DNA of 64,000 bases from an uncultured Prevotella sp. (GTDB lineage Bacteria > Bacteroidota > Bacteroidia > Bacteroidales > Bacteroidaceae), in assembly GCA_900314995.1 (NCBI GenBank), contig OMXK01000010.1, positions 57,832 to 121,831 on the forward strand, read 5' to 3'. This document shows positions 23,591 to 33,080 of this stretch, one piece after another. The number at the start of each line of letters is the position of its first letter. The first letter of the stretch is position 1. The notes under the pieces were generated by a model that did no database searches, had not been told where the DNA came from, and saw nothing but the letters and a program-made list of their open reading frames with translations. The translations under genes were made by a program, and so were the position numbers.

Positions 23591-23623
23591 GGTGCATGTA
23601 ACTACTTCATGCACCTCTTTTTT
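23589..23623 (+). terminator. Intrinsic terminator
   Basis: GAGGTGCATG (23589-23598) and CATGCACCTC (23608-23617) form a 10-bp stem followed by six T. It ends the transcript of the two hypothetical genes. Confidence 0.92.
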
Positions 23624-23628
23624 ATGCC

Positions 23629-23636
23629 TAACTTTG
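23629..23636 (+). promoter_or_regulatory. Promoter -7 box of the Rha/ANT gene
   Basis: TAACTTTG, a perfect match, begins 5 bases after the terminator's T run; the ATG is at 23697. No -33 TTTG is seen because the terminator occupies that position. Confidence 0.62.
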
Positions 23637-23696
23637 CCTTGTCAAACAATCAAACGTCGCCCTAAGGAAGCGACACTAAACAAAGAGACAAGGTAT

Positions 23697-24413
23697 ATGA
23701 AACAAGTAACAAGAACGAGAGAAATCAGCCATGAGGCGCCGGGCGAGGAGAAGGTCATCTCTTCGATCGAGATCGCTGCGCTGCTGGGCAAGCCCCACAA
23801 CGACGTGCTGAAGGCTATCCGAAAGATGGAGCCTGCATGGCAGGAAGTACATCAGGGAAAATTTTCCCAGATGCAGATTCAGGAGAAGTTGCCCAACGGC
23901 GGCTACAGGATGAGGCCCTGTTTCGTGCTGACCAAGACCGAGAGTCTGTTCGTGGCCACGAAGTTCAACGATGTGGCGCGTGCGAAGCTGGTGCTGCGCT
24001 GGGAGGAGCTGGAGCTGTCGGCCAGGAAACGCACCGTGAACATCGCCCATCGCGCCCTGCTGGAGACGGAGGCCGAGGTGATCATGCGGAGCGATGAGAT
24101 CATGAAGCGCGAGCTCTCGCAGCTGAACATCGATGCCGTGGGGTGCTACACGATGAAGTCGGTGGCTGCGAGTCTGAGGATGACCTACCGGGATTTGTGC
24201 CAGATGCTGGTGGCCCACGACGTGATGAACGATGTAGACGGAACTTACGAGCTGCTGCCGCCCTATACATACATGGGCTACGAATCCTATCGGCTCCACG
24301 AGCGTTATAGTCTGATGGGCGACCGTCGCCAGCGGCGCTACATGGTGTGGACAGAGGCGGGTCGCAGTTTCGTGATCGACCTGGTGAGAAGAATCAAGAA
24401 GAGTAGTAACTAA
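23697..24413 (+). CDS. Phage-type regulatory protein: Rha domain plus ANT/KilAC domain
   Basis: 238 residues from ATG 23697 (MKQVTRTREISHEA); the frame is open to 23592, but that stretch overlaps the terminator and promoter. Residues 20-110 match the Rha pattern: SSIEIAALLGKPHNDVLKAIRKM, a YRMRPCFVLTKTESL segment and KFNDVARAKLVLRWEELE. Residues 155-235 match the ANT/KilAC antirepressor domain, ending YMVWTEAGRSFVIDLV. Rha and ANT domains occur in temperate phages and satellites as regulators of lysogeny. Its presence is the clearest phage-like mark in the island. Confidence 0.82.
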   Translation: MKQVTRTREISHEAPGEEKVISSIEIAALLGKPHNDVLKAIRKMEPAWQEVHQGKFSQMQIQEKLPNGGYRMRPCFVLTKTESLFVATKFNDVARAKLVLRWEELELSARKRTVNIAHRALLETEAEVIMRSDEIMKRELSQLNIDAVGCYTMKSVAASLRMTYRDLCQMLVAHDVMNDVDGTYELLPPYTYMGYESYRLHERYSLMGDRRQRRYMVWTEAGRSFVIDLVRRIKKSSN

Positions 24414-25556: not shown

Positions 25557-28007
25557 ATGGATATTTGCTATCAGAAGAAGAAACAGATTATCTTTACGGA
25601 GGCCTGCCCTGAGAAAAAACTCAGGGCACTGGCCGCCAGCCCAGAGACTAAACTGCTCACTGACTGTTGCCGTCTGGCCCTGCAATATGCAGAGGAAGAT
25701 CCCGCCACGATGCCCGATTGGTTTTCAAAGCGGTTCATGAAGTACTGCAAGGATATGACCAAGGAACAAGGTCAGGCATTCCTGAAGAAGACCAATAAAC
25801 AGAAGCTGTTGCTGTTTGCGGAGTATGAAAAAGGTGAACATCCTTTTATCAATTTCTGTGCTCGTGGGTATGACGAATCGGAGGTTAAGGACAAGAAGAC
25901 GGGGAAGATGAAAAAGGGGTCCTGGCGCAAGCAGAAGTATGTGCATCTGTCGGGTCTCGTGGCTATTGACATTGACCACTTGGAGAATCCCAATTCCGTC
26001 TTCGAGCGTTGGCAGAAGGAGGTGGATTTCAAGGCTCTGAAGATATACCTTGTCTATGTTACGCCTCGTGGCAAGGGTTTGAGGGTCGTTTTCCGCTGTG
26101 AGTTGTCAAGGGGCAACCTGATTGATAACCAGATGTGGATGTGTGAGAAGTTGGGAGTAGAACCTGATGCCAGCTGTAAGGATGCCAGCCGTGGGTATTT
26201 CCTCACCTCAACAGAGAATTTTTTGTATGACGATTTAAAACAAATGTATGCAGATGAAGCAGATGAAGATTTTATTCAAAAGTATGAGCCTGAGTATCGG
26301 GCTGGGCGTTCAGGAGCCTCCCCCAACCCCCTCCAAAAGGAAGGGGCTATTGGAAGCGGCGGGGACTGCTTGCAAGGGTCAGGCCCCCAAGCAAAGTCGC
26401 AGGCGACTTCACTTTTGGGCCAGACCCCAGAAAGCAGTCAAGCGGCAGCTGAGTTCCCCCTCCCTTTGGAGGGGGATAGGGGGAGGCTCTGCTTTAAGGG
26501 GATTCCTTATAGCTGGATTATCGACGAGTGGTGGAAGCGGAATGGGGGCGTGCCGCAGGAAGGGGAGCGGAATGTGAAGCTTTACCAGTTGGCGGTGAAC
26601 CTGAGGGCGATTTGTGATAATAACAAGGCGTTGTTGCTGCAGGTGATGCCTCGGCTGGGGCTGGATGAACAGGAGATGCAGAGTATCGTGGAATCGGCCT
26701 GCAAGGAGCCGCCGAAGGGAATCTCAAAGGCTTTGCGAGAGATTGTAAGAGCCTCCCCCGAAGCCTCCCCCAACCCCCTCCAAAGGGAGGGGGCTATTGG
26801 ATCCGAGGCAGAGTCCCCCCTCCCTTTGGAGGGGGATAGGGGGAGGCTTCTGGAGTGGGGCGCGGAGATTGAAGGGATGTTCGGGGATTTCCCCATCCTG
26901 AAGGATATCTGCAAGGGGCTGAAGAAGAACCAGTATCCGGCGGCATTGTTCGTGGCTGGGGGATTCCTGATGACGCTGATGACGCGCTGTACTTATCGCT
27001 TCTATCATCGGCCGGAGGAGCTTCGCAGATTGAACAATTCCACATTGGTGATTGGCGATCCTGCCAGCGGTAAATCATTCGCAACTCGATTGTATAAACT
27101 ATTGACGGGGCCTATCGTGGCAGCGGACAAGATCGGTAAGGATGCTATCAATGCCTACCGCGAGCAGATGCGCACGAAGGGTGCCAACAAGGAGAAGCCG
27201 AAGAAGCCCAAGGTGGTGGTTCGCATCCACCCGGCCAGAACCTCGAATGCACAGTTCATCCAGGACATGGTGAACTCGGTGGAGGAGGTGGACGGTCAGC
27301 CGATGCAGTTGCACATGCTAACCTTTGATACGGAGCTGGATAATACGGTTACCGTTCAGAAGGGTGGTTCGTGGATTGACAAGCAGTCGCTGGAACTGAA
27401 AGCCTTTCACAACGAAGAGGATGGTCAGGCGTATTCCAATAACGACTCGATCCTGCAGGACTTTATGGTGACTTGGAATTTTATTTACACTGGTACCCCC
27501 ATCGCACTGAAGAAGAAGGTCAACGAACAGAACTTCGGCTCAGGCTTGGCGACCCGACTGACCTGCATCCCGCTGCCCGCCACGAACTTTGAGATGATGG
27601 CGCGCGAAGCGACCGTCGACTACGAGAGCGACAACCGTCTGAAGGAGTGGGCAGAGAAGCTGGATCGCATGAAGGGCGAACTCACCGTTCAGAAACTCGT
27701 GGATGAGCTCTATGAATGGACTTCGCGCCGCATGGCCGATGCCAAGGAGAACGACTCGAAGGCCGACGAGATGCTGCTGAAGCGCTGCGCCTACCACGGC
27801 CTGAACTTCGCTGCGCCGTTCATCGTGATGCGCCACTGGGACAAAATGCATCAGGAGGGCAACTACTGGTGTGGCGCGTTCGAGACCGACGAAGTGGACT
27901 GGAAGCTCGCCGAATTGATTGTCAATATCCAGTATGCCTGTCAGCGTCATTATTTTGGTGCGATGGCTGAGAATTATTTTGACAACAAGAACCGTGACGC
28001 ATCTTGA
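25557..28007 (+). CDS. BT4734/VirE-like N-terminal plus DUF3987 primase-helicase-like protein with in-frame repeat insertions
   Basis: 816 residues. The N-terminal third contains VAIDIDHLENP (about residues 136-146) and TPRGKGLRVVFRC (about 169-181), the acidic and glycine motifs expected of an archaeo-eukaryotic-type primase fold (BT4734-like). A DUF3987 ATPase region follows, with Walker A GDPASGKS at about 500-507 and a later FDTELDN. Two stretches, about residues 253-312 and 398-432, are translated palindromic repeats (SPNPLQ and PLPLEGDRGRL in both) and separate these domains. The stop overlaps a 73-codon frame in the -1 frame that looks like the usual C-terminus of the family. It probably acts in replication of the island. 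Confidence 0.85.
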   Translation: MDICYQKKKQIIFTEACPEKKLRALAASPETKLLTDCCRLALQYAEEDPATMPDWFSKRFMKYCKDMTKEQGQAFLKKTNKQKLLLFAEYEKGEHPFINFCARGYDESEVKDKKTGKMKKGSWRKQKYVHLSGLVAIDIDHLENPNSVFERWQKEVDFKALKIYLVYVTPRGKGLRVVFRCELSRGNLIDNQMWMCEKLGVEPDASCKDASRGYFLTSTENFLYDDLKQMYADEADEDFIQKYEPEYRAGRSGASPNPLQKEGAIGSGGDCLQGSGPQAKSQATSLLGQTPESSQAAAEFPLPLEGDRGRLCFKGIPYSWIIDEWWKRNGGVPQEGERNVKLYQLAVNLRAICDNNKALLLQVMPRLGLDEQEMQSIVESACKEPPKGISKALREIVRASPEASPNPLQREGAIGSEAESPLPLEGDRGRLLEWGAEIEGMFGDFPILKDICKGLKKNQYPAALFVAGGFLMTLMTRCTYRFYHRPEELRRLNNSTLVIGDPASGKSFATRLYKLLTGPIVAADKIGKDAINAYREQMRTKGANKEKPKKPKVVVRIHPARTSNAQFIQDMVNSVEEVDGQPMQLHMLTFDTELDNTVTVQKGGSWIDKQSLELKAFHNEEDGQAYSNNDSILQDFMVTWNFIYTGTPIALKKKVNEQNFGSGLATRLTCIPLPATNFEMMAREATVDYESDNRLKEWAEKLDRMKGELTVQKLVDELYEWTSRRMADAKENDSKADEMLLKRCAYHGLNFAAPFIVMRHWDKMHQEGNYWCGAFETDEVDWKLAELIVNIQYACQRHYFGAMAENYFDNKNRDAS
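26314..26489. repeat. In-frame palindromic repeat, copy 1 (GCCTCCCCC type)
   Basis: The left arm (26314-26348, GAGCCTCCCCCAAC onward) is the near-exact inverse of the right arm (26456-26489, ending GATAGGGGGAGGCTC). Each arm contains a smaller inner palindrome around CCAAAAGG or TTTGG. The 176 bases keep the reading frame and encode SPNPLQKEG and PLPLEGDRG peptides. About 100 bases between the arms contain a second, different palindrome at 26376. This resembles the in-gene palindromic elements known from Rickettsia. Confidence 0.85.
26376..26428. repeat. GGGTC-type palindrome nested in copy 1
   Basis: The left arm (26376-26400, GGGTCAGGCCCCCAAG...GTCGC) and right arm (26403-26428, GCGAC...GGGCCAGACCCC) are inverted repeats with small mismatches. 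The core is the same as in the intergenic palindromes at 13972, 20706 and 48295, here found inside a gene and inside another repeat. Confidence 0.75.
26749..26850. repeat. In-frame palindromic repeat, copy 2 (GCCTCCCCC type)
   Basis: The arms at 26762-26795 and 26815-26848 are inverted repeats of the same type as copy 1, separated by about 20 bases. An extra GCCTCCCCC at 26750-26758 duplicates the left end. The element stays in frame and encodes SPNPLQREG and PLPLEGDRGRL. Copy 2 lacks the nested palindrome, so it shows the simple form. Confidence 0.85.
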
Positions 28008-28225
28008 ATGTGCGCCGTCAGCAGAAGACCATCGAGGCCTTCAACCGTCTGCCGGAAACGTTCACCAATGAAGATGTGATGCGCTGCTTCAATCTGTCAA
28101 GTGAAGGTGCTGTTCACAGCAAGACCCGCCGACTGATGGACGATCATCTGATTGTGAAGGTCAATGATAGCAGAACGAACGGGGGCAAGACACTCTATCG
28201 AAAGACCGGTTCCATCATCGTTTGA
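28004..28225 (+). CDS. 73-residue winged-helix-like protein, possibly the split C-terminus of the primase-helicase
   Basis: The frame starts at TTG 28004 (or GTG 28010), overlapping the preceding stop in the -1 frame. The content (QQKTIEAFNRLPETFTNEDVMRCF, then EGAVHSKTRRLMDDHLIVKV) reads as a small winged helix. Similar segments, as I remember them, end longer DUF3987 proteins, so either a -1 frameshift separated the two or they are coupled genes. A TTG start directly on the stop favours a recent split or programmed shift. Its transcript ends at the terminator at 28285. Confidence 0.65.
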   Translation: MNVRRQQKTIEAFNRLPETFTNEDVMRCFNLSSEGAVHSKTRRLMDDHLIVKVNDSRTNGGKTLYRKTGSIIV

Positions 28226-28394: not shown

Positions 28395-29492
28395 ATGAAC
28401 TTATCTCCTACATTAGAGAAGGCTTACACGAAGGAGCATTTGTCGGCCCGCGAGGCTCAGGCAAGGGCAGAGTGGATAGCCTGGGGTCCCATTGTGTTTC
28501 AGGCCTCTCGCCTGATGCTGAAATTCGGGATTCTCGATATGTTGCGCGACAGCGACAAGGGCATGACCATCCAGGAGGTGGCCAGTGAGACGGGGCTGTC
28601 GGTCTATGCGGTGAAGGTGCTGATGGAGGCTTCGCTGTGCATCGGTACAGTAATCGTAGACAAGGACACGGAGCGTTTCGAACTGGCCAAGACGGGCTGG
28701 TTCCTGATCAACGATCCTGCCACGCGTGTGAACTTAGACTTTAATCACGACGTGAACTACGAAGGCTGGTTCCATCTGGAGGAAGCCCTGAAGGAGGGGA
28801 AGCCCGCCGGTCTGAAGCATTTCGGCGACTGGCCCACGATCTACGAAGGTCTCTCGTCGCTGCCCGAGCAGGTGCAGAAGAGTTGGTTTGGCTTCGATCA
28901 TTTCTATAGCGACAGTTCGTTCCAGCAGGCATTGGAGGTGGTGTTCTCCAACAAGCCCCGTACGCTGCTCGACGTTGGCGGCAACACAGGCCGTTGGGCG
29001 ATGCAGTGCGTCGGCTACGATCCCGATGTGTTCGTGACGGTGATGGATCTGCCGCAGCAGGTGGAGATGATGGAGCAGCAGACGGCCGGCAAGCCCGGTG
29101 CCGAGCGTATCGATGCCTTTGCCACTGACTTGCTGAACCGCTCTAACTCGTTCCCGACGAACAAGCACTACGATGCCATCTGGATGAGTCAGTTCCTCGA
29201 CTGTTTCGGTGAGGACGAGATCCTGAGCATTCTGGAGCGTGCGGCGAAGATCATGGACAAAGACAGCCGCGTATATATCATGGAGACGCTCTGGGATCGC
29301 CAGCGATTCGAGCCTGCAGCCTTCTGTCTGACGATGACCAGCCTGTATTTCACGGCGCTGGCCAACGGCAACTCCAAGATGTACAACACCGACGATATGG
29401 TTCGCCTGATCGGCGAGGCAGGTCTTGAGGTGGAGACGATCCACGACAATCTGGGTCAGGGGCACTCCATCATCGTTTGCAAAAAGAAGTAA
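28395..29492 (+). CDS. SAM-dependent O-methyltransferase-like protein
   Basis: 365 residues. An N-terminal winged-helix dimerisation part (MLRDSDKGMTIQEVASETGLSVYAVKVLMEA) precedes a class I SAM fold with the motif LLDVGGNTGRWA near residue 197 and VMDLPQQ near 220. This is the layout of O-methyltransferases that cap aromatic or polyketide products. It is the first gene of the lipid cluster and fits the position of the methyltransferase of aryl polyene clusters, which methylates the aryl head. The substrate is not known. Confidence 0.82.
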   Translation: MNLSPTLEKAYTKEHLSAREAQARAEWIAWGPIVFQASRLMLKFGILDMLRDSDKGMTIQEVASETGLSVYAVKVLMEASLCIGTVIVDKDTERFELAKTGWFLINDPATRVNLDFNHDVNYEGWFHLEEALKEGKPAGLKHFGDWPTIYEGLSSLPEQVQKSWFGFDHFYSDSSFQQALEVVFSNKPRTLLDVGGNTGRWAMQCVGYDPDVFVTVMDLPQQVEMMEQQTAGKPGAERIDAFATDLLNRSNSFPTNKHYDAIWMSQFLDCFGEDEILSILERAAKIMDKDSRVYIMETLWDRQRFEPAAFCLTMTSLYFTALANGNSKMYNTDDMVRLIGEAGLEVETIHDNLGQGHSIIVCKKK

Positions 29493-29519
29493 TAATACAC
29501 ATAAAAGTTTTTTAGAACA

Positions 29520-29762
29520 ATGGAAAGAAAAGAAATTGAAGAGAAAGTAAGAGAGTTCCTGATTGAAGACCTCGAGATCGACGAGGAGAAGATTGCCCCG
29601 GAGGCTCTGCTGAAGGAGGATCTGGGCATCGACAGTCTTGACTTCGTGGATATCGTGGTCATCGTAGAGAAGAAGTTCGGTTTCAAGATCAAGCCCGAGG
29701 AGATGACCGAGGTGAAGACCCTGAACCAGTTTAACGACTATATCCAGAGTAAGGTAGGGTAA
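29520..29762 (+). CDS. Acyl carrier protein 1
   Basis: An 80-residue ACP with the phosphopantetheine serine in LGIDSLDFVDIVV (Ser near residue 38) and the usual acidic helix II. Such proteins carry growing acyl chains on a thioester. The gene is followed, with TAATG overlap, by an acyltransferase. A second ACP lies at 31617; aryl polyene clusters also have two. Confidence 0.93.
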   Translation: MERKEIEEKVREFLIEDLEIDEEKIAPEALLKEDLGIDSLDFVDIVVIVEKKFGFKIKPEEMTEVKTLNQFNDYIQSKVG

Positions 29763-30676
29763 TGGCTGAACAGCTGGAACACGAAGCCTGGCGTGGTAAT
29801 ACGGGTGGTAATGCCTGGATGCATCGTACGCTGATCAAATCGTTCGGGTTTATGAACCTGCGGTTTGTCTATCTGGGTATGGCCATCTTTGCGATACCGT
29901 TCTACATGATATTCGCCCATAAGGGCTATATCTCGATGTACCACTATTTCCGCCAGCGTCGTGGGTACGGCGTGTGGAAGTCGTTCCGCTATGTCTATCT
30001 GAACCACTATCGATTCGGGCAGATTGTGCTTGACCGTTTCGCGATGTTCGCCGGGCGGAAATTCCAGATCGACGTCGACGGCAACGACCAGTTCGAGGAT
30101 CTGATGGACGGCGAACAGGGATTTATGGTGCTGAGCAGTCACGTGGGCAACTATGAGTTGGCCGGCTACACCTTCAAGGCCAGGAAGAAGCGTTTCAATG
30201 CGCTGGTATTCTCAGGTGAGGCGCAGGATGTGATGGAGGAGCGCAACAAGCAGTTGTCGAAGAACAACATCCGGCTGGTGCCGGCCAGCAGCGATATGTC
30301 GCACATCTTTGTGATGAACGACGCGCTTGCCAGCGGTGAGATCGTGAGCATCCCCGGCGACCGCATTTTCGGTTCGCCCCGCTATGTGGAGTGCGACTTC
30401 CTGGGCAGCAAGGCGCGGTTCCCCCTGGGGCCGTTTGTGCTGGCGCTGCAGCGGAATGTGCCCACACTGGCCATCTTCGTGATGAAGGCCTCGCCTTACC
30501 GCTATCAGGCTTATGTGAGGCGCATTCAGGCCGACAACCGTAAGTACACTGGTCGCAATGATCGGGCAGCCAACCTGGCTCAGCATTTCGCTAGCGAAAT
30601 CGAGCAGGTGCTGGAGAAGTATCCCGAACAGTGGTTTAATTTTTATGAGTTTTGGAATTATGACACAGAACAATGA
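29762..30676 (+). CDS. LpxL/HtrB-like membrane acyltransferase
   Basis: 304 residues. An N-terminal hydrophobic segment (FVYLGMAIFAIPFYMIF) is followed by SSHVGNYELAGY near residue 125, the HX4E motif of LpxL-type acyltransferases, and FGSPRYVECDFLG. These enzymes move acyl chains from ACP onto lipids at the inner membrane. Its start shares a base with the ACP stop (TAATG), a sign of direct partnership. It likely transfers the cluster's acyl product to a lipid or sugar carrier. Confidence 0.85.
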   Translation: MAEQLEHEAWRGNTGGNAWMHRTLIKSFGFMNLRFVYLGMAIFAIPFYMIFAHKGYISMYHYFRQRRGYGVWKSFRYVYLNHYRFGQIVLDRFAMFAGRKFQIDVDGNDQFEDLMDGEQGFMVLSSHVGNYELAGYTFKARKKRFNALVFSGEAQDVMEERNKQLSKNNIRLVPASSDMSHIFVMNDALASGEIVSIPGDRIFGSPRYVECDFLGSKARFPLGPFVLALQRNVPTLAIFVMKASPYRYQAYVRRIQADNRKYTGRNDRAANLAQHFASEIEQVLEKYPEQWFNFYEFWNYDTEQ

Positions 30677-31112
30677 CCTGGAGAAGATCGACGTGCTGAC
30701 ACTGCTGCCGCAGCGCCCGCCGTTTGTGATGATAGACCAGCTGACCCACTTCGACGAGGTGGTGACCTCCACCCGCTTTGAAGTGCGCGAGGACAACCTC
30801 TTCATGGAGGCCGACGGTCAGTTGAACTCCTGTGCGCTGGTAGAGAACATCGCCCAGACCTGTGCTGCGCGTATGGGCTATATCAACTCTTACATCATCA
30901 AGGACAAGGTGAAGCTGGGATTCATCGGCGCCATCAAGCGACTGGAGATCCTGCGCCCGGCCCGCAAGGGCGAGGTGCTCTCCACCAGTATCGAGGTGAT
31001 GCAGGAGGTGGGTGCCGTGACGATGGTGAACGCCACTGTGAAGGTGGGCGAGGAGACCCTCGTGACAGCCGAGATGAAGATTGCCCTGAGTGATATTGAG
31101 GCCGTGAATTGA
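30660..31112 (+). CDS. Hot-dog fold 3-hydroxyacyl-ACP dehydratase-like protein
   Basis: About 150 residues from ATG 30660 (MTQNNDLEKIDVLTLLPQRPPFVMID); the frame is open from 30558, but that part overlaps the upstream gene. The start LLPQRPPFVMIDQL and the centre ALVENIAQTCAARMG match ApeP-like dehydratases of aryl polyene clusters, which have QT in the SQT-like helix. The catalytic His motif is not the FabZ HFPG type, so this may have a partner or altered function. It overlaps the next gene by 4 bases. Confidence 0.8.
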   Translation: MTQNNDLEKIDVLTLLPQRPPFVMIDQLTHFDEVVTSTRFEVREDNLFMEADGQLNSCALVENIAQTCAARMGYINSYIIKDKVKLGFIGAIKRLEILRPARKGEVLSTSIEVMQEVGAVTMVNATVKVGEETLVTAEMKIALSDIEAVN

Positions 31113-31558
31113 TGGAAAAGCAAGGAAAGAAGAAAGTGCTGAAAGCCTCGAAGGTGCTCGACATCCGTTTCAGCGAGGTCGACTCGATGAATGTGGTGTG
31201 GCACGGCTCGTACATGCTCTATTTCGAGGATGCCCGTGAGGAGTTCGGCCGACAGTATCAGTTGGAGTATCTGCGCATCGCCGACTTCGGCTACTATGCC
31301 CCGCTGGTGGACATGCAGTTCCACTACCGCAAGCCCATCACCTACGGCATGCGTCCGCGCATCGATATCATCTACCGCCCGACGCTCTCGGCGAAGATTG
31401 TCTTCGACTACGAGATCCACGACCCTGAGACCGAAGAACTGATGGCCAGCGGCACATCGGTGCAGGTGTTTATGGACAAGAACTACCAGTTGGTGTGGTC
31501 GAGTCCTGAATTCTACGAGAAGTGGAAGCAGATGTGGGGAGTAGGGGAGGAAATTTGA
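31109..31558 (+). CDS. 4-hydroxybenzoyl-CoA thioesterase-fold protein
   Basis: 149 residues. The motif RFSEVDSMNVVWHGSYMLYFEDARE matches the active-site segment of YbgC/4HBT thioesterases (Asp near residue 25, HGSYMLYFE). Thioesterases of this type release acyl chains from carrier proteins. The position after the dehydratase mirrors ApeK in aryl polyene clusters. The start overlaps the dehydratase stop (ATGA). Confidence 0.85.
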   Translation: MMEKQGKKKVLKASKVLDIRFSEVDSMNVVWHGSYMLYFEDAREEFGRQYQLEYLRIADFGYYAPLVDMQFHYRKPITYGMRPRIDIIYRPTLSAKIVFDYEIHDPETEELMASGTSVQVFMDKNYQLVWSSPEFYEKWKQMWGVGEEI

Positions 31559-31605
31559 AATGTAAAAATGTAACAATTTAAAAATGTAAAAATTTAATAA
31601 TAATT
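31557..31605. repeat. AT-rich AATGTAAAA repeats
   Basis: Three imperfect AATGTAAAA units lie in the only sizeable gap (58 bases) in the first half of the lipid cluster, before ACP 2. An internal promoter cannot be excluded; no TAnnTTTG is present. Confidence 0.55.
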
Positions 31606-31616
31606 ATAGACACACT

Positions 31617-31874
31617 ATGGAAGAATTGGTATTAGAACTGAAGAAACAGATTATTGAGGTGTTGAACCTGGAAGATGTTCAGCCTGAGGATATTGACAAT
31701 GATGCCCCTCTGTTTGGCGAGGGTCTGGGTCTCGACTCTATCGACGCCCTTGAGCTCATCGTGATGATGGAGAAGAGCTATGGCATCAAGATCAAGGATC
31801 CCGCAGCCGGCAAGGAGATCTTCAAGTCGATCAACACCATGGCAGCCTTTGTCGAGGCTAACCGTACGAAGTAA
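31617..31874 (+). CDS. Acyl carrier protein 2
   Basis: 85 residues with LGLDSIDALELIVMME, the phosphopantetheine serine near residue 41, and LNLEDVQPEDIDNDAPLFGEG. This form resembles the ACPs of aryl polyene and flexirubin clusters. The gene touches the ketosynthase start (TAAGTGGCTGAC, no gap), so the two are probably translated together. Confidence 0.93.
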   Translation: MEELVLELKKQIIEVLNLEDVQPEDIDNDAPLFGEGLGLDSIDALELIVMMEKSYGIKIKDPAAGKEIFKSINTMAAFVEANRTK

Positions 31875-33080
31875 GTGGCTGACATGACGAAGCCAATCAT
31901 GATAACGGGTGTGGGCATCGTGTCGGCCATCGGCAACGGTAAGGCTGAGACGCTGCAAGCCCTGCGCGACGAGTGTACGGGCATTGCCCCCCTGCACTAT
32001 CTGAAGACCAGTCATCGGGAGTTTCCCGTCGGTGAGGTGAAGCTGAGCGACGAGGAGATGAAACAGCAGCTGGGCATCACGAGCGAGCCTACGACGCGCA
32101 CGGCGCTGATGGGTATGCTGGCGATGCAGGAGGCGCTGGAGGAAGCCCGGCTGACTACGGCCGAAGGGCTGCAGGTGGCGCTGGTATCCGGAACGACGGT
32201 GGGCGGTATGGACAAGAGCGAACAGTTCTATCTGGACTATCTGGCGAACGATTCGCAGAATGCCTATATCAAGACCCACGACTGTGGTGCCACCACCGAA
32301 ATGATAGCCGACCGCTTCGGCATCTTCTCGATGGCTACGAGCATCTCGACGGCCTGCTCGTCGGCAGCCAATGCCATCATCCTCGGAGCCAACCTGATTC
32401 GTGCCGGACTGACGGAGATAGCTGTCGTAGGCGGTTCGGAGTGTATCACGAAATTCCACCTCAACGGTTTCAACTCGCTGATGATCCTCGACCATGAGCA
32501 GTGCCGGCCATTCGACGCTACGCGTGCCGGACTGAACCTCGGAGAAGGAGCCTCGTATCTCGTGCTGGAAACGGCCGAGTCGGCTCAGCGCCGAGGGGCA
32601 ACGGTGATCGGTGAACTCAGCGGCTATGGCAATGCCTGTGACGCCTTCCACCAGACCGCTTCGAGCGACGACGGTGAGGGTGCCTTCCTGGCGATGAAAA
32701 AAGCACTCGCAATGGCAGGGCTTGAACCTGCGTCCATCGACTATGTGAATGCCCACGGCACGGGTACACCCAACAACGATGTGAGCGAGAGTACGGCCCT
32801 GAAGCGGCTCTTCGGTGAGTCGATGCCATTCATCTCATCGACGAAGGGCATGACAGGCCATACCACCAGTGCATCCGGATCCGTAGAGGCTACCATCTGC
32901 CTGCTCGCCATCCAGAACGGCATCGTGCCGTCGAACTATGGTTGGGCCAACCAGATGGAGGACGGCATCACGCCGGTAGCCCATTGTCTCAGCGGACAGC
33001 AGCTGCACCATGTGATGTGTAACTCGTTCGGCTTCGGCGGCAACGACTCAAGTATCATCCTCTCAAGACACGAAGCATGA
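31875..33080 (+). CDS. Beta-ketoacyl-ACP synthase (KS), catalytically complete
   Basis: 401 residues. It begins at GTG 31875 (MADMTKPIMITGVGIVS); ATG 31884 is an alternative. The Cys-His-His triad is intact: Cys in SISTACSSAANA, His in VNAHGTGTP and His in MTGHTTSASG. It condenses malonyl-ACP with the growing chain. The following gene is KS-like without the cysteine, so the pair forms a KS/chain-length-factor heterodimer as in ApeO/ApeC and type II polyketide synthases. Confidence 0.93.
   Translation: MADMTKPIMITGVGIVSAIGNGKAETLQALRDECTGIAPLHYLKTSHREFPVGEVKLSDEEMKQQLGITSEPTTRTALMGMLAMQEALEEARLTTAEGLQVALVSGTTVGGMDKSEQFYLDYLANDSQNAYIKTHDCGATTEMIADRFGIFSMATSISTACSSAANAIILGANLIRAGLTEIAVVGGSECITKFHLNGFNSLMILDHEQCRPFDATRAGLNLGEGASYLVLETAESAQRRGATVIGELSGYGNACDAFHQTASSDDGEGAFLAMKKALAMAGLEPASIDYVNAHGTGTPNNDVSESTALKRLFGESMPFISSTKGMTGHTTSASGSVEATICLLAIQNGIVPSNYGWANQMEDGITPVAHCLSGQQLHHVMCNSFGFGGNDSSIILSRHEA

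Follow-up and report, generated by a model that had tools for sequence, protein, structure and literature searches.

The window analysed here is a stretch of 64,000 nucleotides from an uncultured Prevotella sp. (GenBank assembly GCA_900314995.1, contig OMXK01000010.1, positions 57,832 to 121,831), and it carries at 25557..28007 (+ strand, as for all window positions below unless stated) an 816-aa open reading frame (ORF) for a primase-helicase-like protein into which two palindromic repeats have been inserted (26314..26489 and 26749..26850). The likely origin of these repeats from a mobile element linked to nuclease-like genes with the DUF559 domain is the subject of this report. L, C and G numbers denote loci, contigs and genomes, respectively. 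The only Pfam match of the protein was N-terminal, to PF08800 (BT4734-like; E 3.2e-9), and searches with NCBIfam and PHROGs profiles gave no match; the gene is presumably of the DUF3987 type (VirE-like) as well.

In the repeat unit, which is about 35 nt long, the tag GCCTCCCCC precedes a hairpin, CCCCCTCC-AAAG-GGAGGGGG, with an 8-bp stem and an AAAG loop; we refer to it as a repetitive extragenic palindrome (REP) unit. Copy 1 (26314..26489) is an inverted pair of two such units, as in a REPIN (REP doublet forming a hairpin), with arms (26314-26346 and 26457-26489) that are 110 nt apart. Its left unit (26314..26350) consists of the tag GCCTCCCCC and a hairpin with 2 mismatches, its right unit lies at 26454..26489 (- strand), and a hairpin of a second family is nested at 26356..26440. 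Copy 2 (26749..26850) is also an inverted pair of two units, with arms (26767-26793 and 26816-26842) 22 nt apart and an extra half tag ahead of it (26749-26760). The copies share direct repeats of 41 nt (26448-26488 and 26808-26848) and 40 nt (26315-26354 and 26762-26801), each 95% identical, and both are read through by the ORF, with the peptides GASPNPLQKEG...EFPLPLEGDRGRL and ASPEASPNPLQREG...SPLPLEGDRGRL. The predicted RNA fold of copy 2 has an energy of -74.1 kcal/mol (z = -5.8) and the nested palindrome folded alone has z = -4.3. The nested family has 14 other places in the source genome (L019, L020, L021, L085-L095), of which 13 lie outside ATG-started ORFs of at least 110 aa and one shares 9 nt with an ORF of this kind; several are close to the end of a contig or follow a DUF3987 paralogue downstream. 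The first-pass annotation had located the two repeats in frame at these positions and had read the nested palindrome as a sign that at least two elements entered the gene, and both observations were confirmed.

Paralogues of the BT4734-like gene were found at about 15 other places in the source genome, divergent and themselves modular, and the window protein was compared with the longest ORFs of fifteen of these own-genome loci (L018-L032), to which the homologue comparison was confined. The N module (aa 1-252, 25557..26312) has its nearest paralogues in L018/L019 (47% over 142 aa and 49% over 141 aa), the middle module (aa 312-399, 26490..26753) is 71% identical over 87 aa to L026 and has no match in L018-L022, and the C module (aa 433-816, 26853..28004), in which a GDPASGKS P-loop was spotted by eye, is 90% identical over 384 aa to L018/L019. 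The C module has a nonsynonymous divergence (dN) of 0.07-0.08 and a synonymous divergence (dS) of about 2, near saturation, though this history may be older than the inserts. The inserts are located between the three modules, in agreement with the earlier suggestion that they lie between functional parts, and the gene is a mosaic that has its joins there. Paralogues L018 and L019 lack both insert peptides. Paralogue L020 (on C79) carries the copy 1 insert between its N and middle modules, 97% identical over 137 nt (a match that covers the nested hairpin and the right REP unit) and with divergent flanks, and REP units also occupy this inter-module position in L028. Tags are doubled in copy 2, L020 and L028, a hint that units may insert into existing units. 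Downstream of the ORF, tblastn with two paralogues showed that the homology to L018/L019 is resumed in a second frame (28004..28222, end approximate), and the 816-aa protein is short of about 73 C-terminal residues present in both. As the homology changes frame near 28004, the gene may be truncated by a frameshift or misassembled, or the sequence may be in error there.

A search of the 3.48-Mb source genome with the 20-nt hairpin, allowing up to 3 mismatches, yielded 16 occurrences, compared to none for the reversed pattern, and the number is therefore not due to chance. Judged by the open frame and not by protein data, 14 of the 16 are in frame within coding sequence. Four of these are in the window gene and three in two paralogues (C79 and C29:39.6k), and there are single copies in the genes for ArgS, UvrA, IlvD, RNase HII and an RlmD-like methyltransferase, in the signal-peptide region of an outer-membrane efflux protein and in the linker between DUF559 and RNase H domains. 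The two intergenic hairpins are in the argS-DUF559 gap and in the gap between ORFs that read, by eye, as argG and argC. The inserts in UvrA and IlvD are common to the source genome (G000) and its close relative G318 and are missing from the 7 other UvrA rows and the 6 other IlvD rows of the orthologue comparison; the RlmD-like insert is absent from G318 and from the remaining rows. The insertion sites in RNase HII and ArgS are variable linkers among the relatives, and argS of G318 contains what looks like a decayed remnant of the repeat. We also observed differing repeat-like peptides in the signal-peptide regions of outer-membrane efflux lipoproteins (L034, L295 and L299, the last two being genes of genome G320).

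The repeat is present in other genomes as well. The exact pattern, searched over species genomes (records close to the source genome were possibly left out), was found in 29 stretches, 27 of them from Bacteroidota, mostly Prevotella or other Prevotellaceae and several from ruminant forestomachs according to their titles; the remaining two were from an Oscillospiraceae metagenome-assembled genome and a Betaproteobacterium. Judging from these relatives, the source genome too is probably that of a rumen Prevotella. The REP was within a Pfam-matched ORF in 13 of the 29 stretches (IspD twice, PrmC, Tex, a P-type ATPase, an FGGY kinase, TrpE, a U32 peptidase, GH97, an S9-like protein, PD40 and DUF559-RNase H twice). 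The 16 others comprise 14 unscanned stretches, including L151 and L153 (apparent copies of L129 and L143), and two that were scanned, the DbpA loci L137 and L148, which were not taken as genic since the REP precedes the first Met. Copies of this unit are thus found in genes and in frame elsewhere too, and not all of them lie outside genes. The six frames of the unit are all open, and each of them is used among the 32 genic units (related copies included), so that selection does not favour any single peptide. Of 301 genomes sampled across the family, 24 contained the hairpin (up to 2 mismatches), and most copies were in the source genome.

The main clue was that two REP units bound a DUF559 nuclease-like gene of the source genome, which lies outside the window (C49:92155-92680; L226, L033). 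The REPs beside this gene match both ends of copy 2 and the right end of copy 1 at 94-100% of 32-36 aligned bases and the left end of copy 1 at 28/32 and 30/32, so that agreement with the window repeat ends ranges from 28/32 up to 34/34 bases. The window repeats share their ends with a gene-bearing element, as would a miniature inverted-repeat transposable element (MITE) of the DUF559 unit. The 290-aa ORF at L033 has DUF559 (PF04480) with E 6.7e-30, which is the one strong match in the source genome, next to a weak one in a long ORF (C68). The C49 gene continues in frame into an RNase H portion that lacks its usual N-terminal part (the match is only to positions 74-211 of NF046109 and below the cut-off of the model). 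Fourteen DUF559 columns, among them E19, D48, E59, D61 and D74, are invariant in all 58 domains compared. Two proteins of solved structure, one endonuclease-like and one from a mobile intron, are homologues of the small nuclease-like DUF559: the domain of L130 matched 3hrl (8.3e-21) and 3r3p, 'mobile intron protein' (3.8e-5), the latter of which we take to be the Vsr-fold, EDxHD homing endonuclease I-Bth0305I.

The association between DUF559 genes and hairpins extends over the genus, in which 71 of the 120 genomes have a Pfam match to DUF559. We sampled 70 loci, namely 30 matches of the Pfam search, 39 further places from the top of its ranking and the strong match of the source genome (one place near a contig end was skipped, and the lower-ranked matches, well over fifty, were not included). 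Up to 100 bp from the DUF559 domain the hairpin density was 2.86 per kb, and beyond 500 bp it was 0.05-0.10 per kb. When the left flank was aligned to the reverse complement of the right flank, an inverted match of at least 20 was found for 50/70 loci and of at least 16 for 58/70, against 0/68 at the latter threshold in a control shifted 700 bp further out (highest 11.5; two flanks were too short) and 24/300 left-right pairs at the former in a cross-locus control. For nine genomes more than one unit had been sampled, and in these the best match was with the own partner flank for 27 of the 30 units (one tie, L221), including 5/5 in the single-contig genome G413; among the within-genome cross pairs 15/82 reached 16. 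Moreover, DUF559 protein distance and repeat distance are correlated over the 58 matched loci (Mantel r 0.495, reached in 0/5000 permutations). One DUF559 unit supplied a repeat type that recurs in 10 of the 120 genus genomes, all 10 of them DUF559-positive (P 0.004), and has 66 places in G346, whose unit L173 carries it.

In several cases the domain itself was found inside another protein, as was seen when 28 of the 33 long ORFs with DUF559 were scanned against Pfam. DUF559 is located mid-protein in leucyl-tRNA synthetase (LeuRS) at two different positions (L214, L224, L302), in MetH (L322, L328), a DegT-family aminotransferase (L206), an ABC-F-like ATPase (L172), an AAA-domain protein (L175) and HsdR-like proteins (L306, L308); it stands behind an epimerase (L200) and forms N-terminal fusions with IspF (five loci), guanylate kinase (four), an amino acid kinase (L179) and a SpoU methylase (L163). 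Fusions of DUF559 with RNase H were found as well, and L189 and L208 are DUF559 alone. A number of these fusions may represent ordinary architectures of nucleases, particularly where the partner is a restriction-modification protein, and they carry less weight. The aminotransferase, from a single-contig genome, has 178 extra residues between aligned residues 184 and 187 of 2po3 (the two residues between are missing), and they consist of DUF559 with repeat-coded proline-/glycine-rich peptides at each end; judged from the reading frame, it is the cleanest case of a whole unit, repeat-DUF559-repeat, open inside another enzyme. In the LeuRS of L224, 161 extra residues (DUF559) lie between residues 236 and 237 of 1h3n. 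No splicing domain was found in the 28 of 33 long DUF559 ORFs scanned (Pfam, E 1e-6); RNA introns were not searched at the loci.

Taken together, in-frame repeats in conserved genes and the DUF559 gene that they bound suggest a mobile element that is translated within host proteins. We consider it likely that the palindromes in the window gene are non-autonomous copies of a DUF559-linked element, the full form of which is REP - DUF559 gene - REP. They would be REPIN- or MITE-like, each with two inverted REPs, and would have arisen from the DUF559 unit by deletion. DUF559 would recognise the hairpin-bearing ends and cut or nick, and repair would then copy the REP-bounded DNA to new places. Insertions in genes would survive only where frame and fold hold (linkers, domain joins, signal peptides), the frame being kept by selection after insertion, and the REPs of the window gene may have served as, or may mark, recombination junctions between paralogues from which the mosaic arose. 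For the wider notion of an element class, consisting of a DUF559 nuclease gene, its own hairpin pair and repeat-only derivatives, which inserts in frame and is translated unspliced even in the essential LeuRS and the repeat copies of which also serve as joints at which protein modules are shuffled, we regard the case as evenly balanced. Such a class was not found in the open-access literature searched, and the open-access papers on DUF559, by their titles and the starts of their abstracts, contained nothing on repeats or palindromes.

Several observations weigh against an origin from a DUF559-linked element. That DUF559 moves the REPs we infer from their linkage, which alone is no proof. Among the 70 genus loci, 20 remained below 20 and 12 below 16 in the flank test, and across the phylum 12 of the 30 top-ranked DUF559 loci reached 16 (controls 0/26). 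Three of the 30 units in genomes with several units (L164, L172, L197) match another flank in the genome better than their own partner. The flank control of the Mantel test (r 0.122) was itself reached by only 2/2000 permutations, and relatedness therefore explains part of the correlation. The argS REP is in a hypervariable linker with no clear net length added, and neither a target-site duplication nor a clean nucleotide-level empty site was obtained, the relatives at argS and five other genes being too divergent or the linker variable. The window gene is probably truncated, which weakens the case that it tolerates its inserts. Finally, in the repeat type with 66 places in G346 just 1 of 21 distinct hairpins (17 stretches) is in an ORF of at least 150 aa. 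The idea that repeats of such kind always sit in genes was rejected, since nearly all hairpins of this other type lie outside ORFs; residence within genes thus characterises only some repeat types.

The repeats could also be ordinary REPs mobilised by a RAYT (REP-associated tyrosine transposase; TnpA-REP, HuH Y1), with the DUF559 genes merely between them. The hairpins that flank the nuclease gene as inverted pairs have the arrangement of a REPtron, and the source genome has one Y1_Tnp gene. Furthermore, a TnpA-REP subclass 2.4 with REPs inside its own gene, the frame of which is undisturbed, and a subclass 2.6 with atypical hairpins without the usual tag have been described for Bacteroidetes (PMC6006769). 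Against this, the repeat unit has no GTAG or CGTC tag, most DUF559 genes own a matched repeat pair that co-varies with the protein, and no such REP was found within about 2.7 kb on either side of Y1_Tnp (a 6-kb stretch), where only one unrelated hairpin was seen. As a partner in the source genome the RAYT was rejected because the Y1_Tnp locus lacks the repeat, and we consider mobilisation by a RAYT unlikely overall. Spread of the window copies without transposition, by gene conversion or recombination among the DUF3987 paralogues after an old insertion, would account for the near identity of copy 1 and the L020 insert at the same inter-module place between divergent flanks and for the joins of the mosaic gene at the inserts, but the copies in the unrelated argS, uvrA, ilvD, rnhB and efflux genes cannot be derived from recombination of paralogues. 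As a full account we think it improbable; for the window copies themselves it is compatible with an origin from a DUF559-linked element.

Two other possibilities had been raised by the first-pass annotation, a selected linker and a mobile RNA-like element, and neither was borne out. The position of the inserts at module joins, the preserved frame and the presence of the UvrA and IlvD inserts in both G000 and G318 would fit peptides that function as linkers in the protein. However, the genic copies use all six unit frames, so the peptides differ, the linkers at the same sites in relatives are unrelated in sequence and varied in length, and the RlmD-like insert is missing in G318, which makes this explanation very improbable. 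It is hardly more plausible that the element acts at the RNA level, as an intron, ribozyme or regulatory hairpin: the predicted folds are very stable, yet there was no Rfam family at gathering score (ten sub-threshold matches, nine of them to microRNA hairpin families) and no sign of splicing.

Upstream of the primase-helicase gene the window contains a Rha/KilAC antirepressor-like gene (23592-24413), which points to a small mobile or phage-derived cassette. Downstream (28395-33080), methyltransferase-, acyl carrier protein-, acyltransferase- and ketosynthase-like ORFs stand in a row, as judged by eye, and this row presumably resembles an aryl polyene-type cluster.

To our knowledge, the way in which protein-coding palindromes spread has been an open question since their discovery in Rickettsia. 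A palindrome family of similar habit that is physically tied to a nuclease-like gene makes spread testable with purified protein and short DNA, and it provides a candidate role for DUF559, a Pfam domain of unknown function. In addition, conserved enzymes were shown to carry a whole extra domain, and should the repeats double as joints of recombination, they would offer a route to new domain combinations.

The Rickettsia palindromic elements (RPEs) of Rickettsia and Wolbachia are dispersed palindromes that are translated in frame in conserved proteins and tolerated rather than required (PMC2229807). The repeat family found here is likewise dispersed and in frame in conserved genes and, as far as open frames go, behaves as an RPE-like protein-coding palindrome, so that the likeness to Rickettsia drawn in the first-pass annotation was apt. 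It differs from RPE (105-146 bp) in its length (about 35 nt for the unit, 87-176 nt as a pair), in its Bacteroidota host and in that the repeats bound a linked nuclease-like gene; we know of no partner enzyme for RPE. With REP, REPIN and RAYT systems it shares the short hairpin units, the inverted pairs and the flanking of an enzyme gene, and two inverted REPs, as in a REPIN, were found in copies 1 and 2 and in the flanks of 50/70 DUF559 loci, a likeness of layout that does not imply joint movement. REPs are defined by a GTAG or CGTC tetranucleotide at the foot of the hairpin, and are known inside genes in several species (PMC3733652), whereas the present unit is not tagged in this way, the central gene is DUF559 and not a HuH Y1 transposase, a whole unit can be translated within an unrelated enzyme and the one Y1_Tnp gene of the source genome is not flanked by the repeat. 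The nuclease domain is homologous to that of a mobile-intron homing endonuclease (3r3p), but the element differs from it in the lack of a splicing domain in the scanned fusions, in its hairpin-repeat borders and in its many unrelated sites. Copy 2 resembles the two ends of a DUF559 unit with the middle lost, like a MITE with an autonomous partner, although its ends are hairpins instead of the simple terminal inverted repeats of a typical MITE. Because the unit lacks the REP tag and, in the source genome, the Y1-transposase feature, we filed the family under protein-coding palindromes and not under REP/RAYT; we take it for a variant of the former that is RPE-like at the protein level and REP/RAYT-like in layout.

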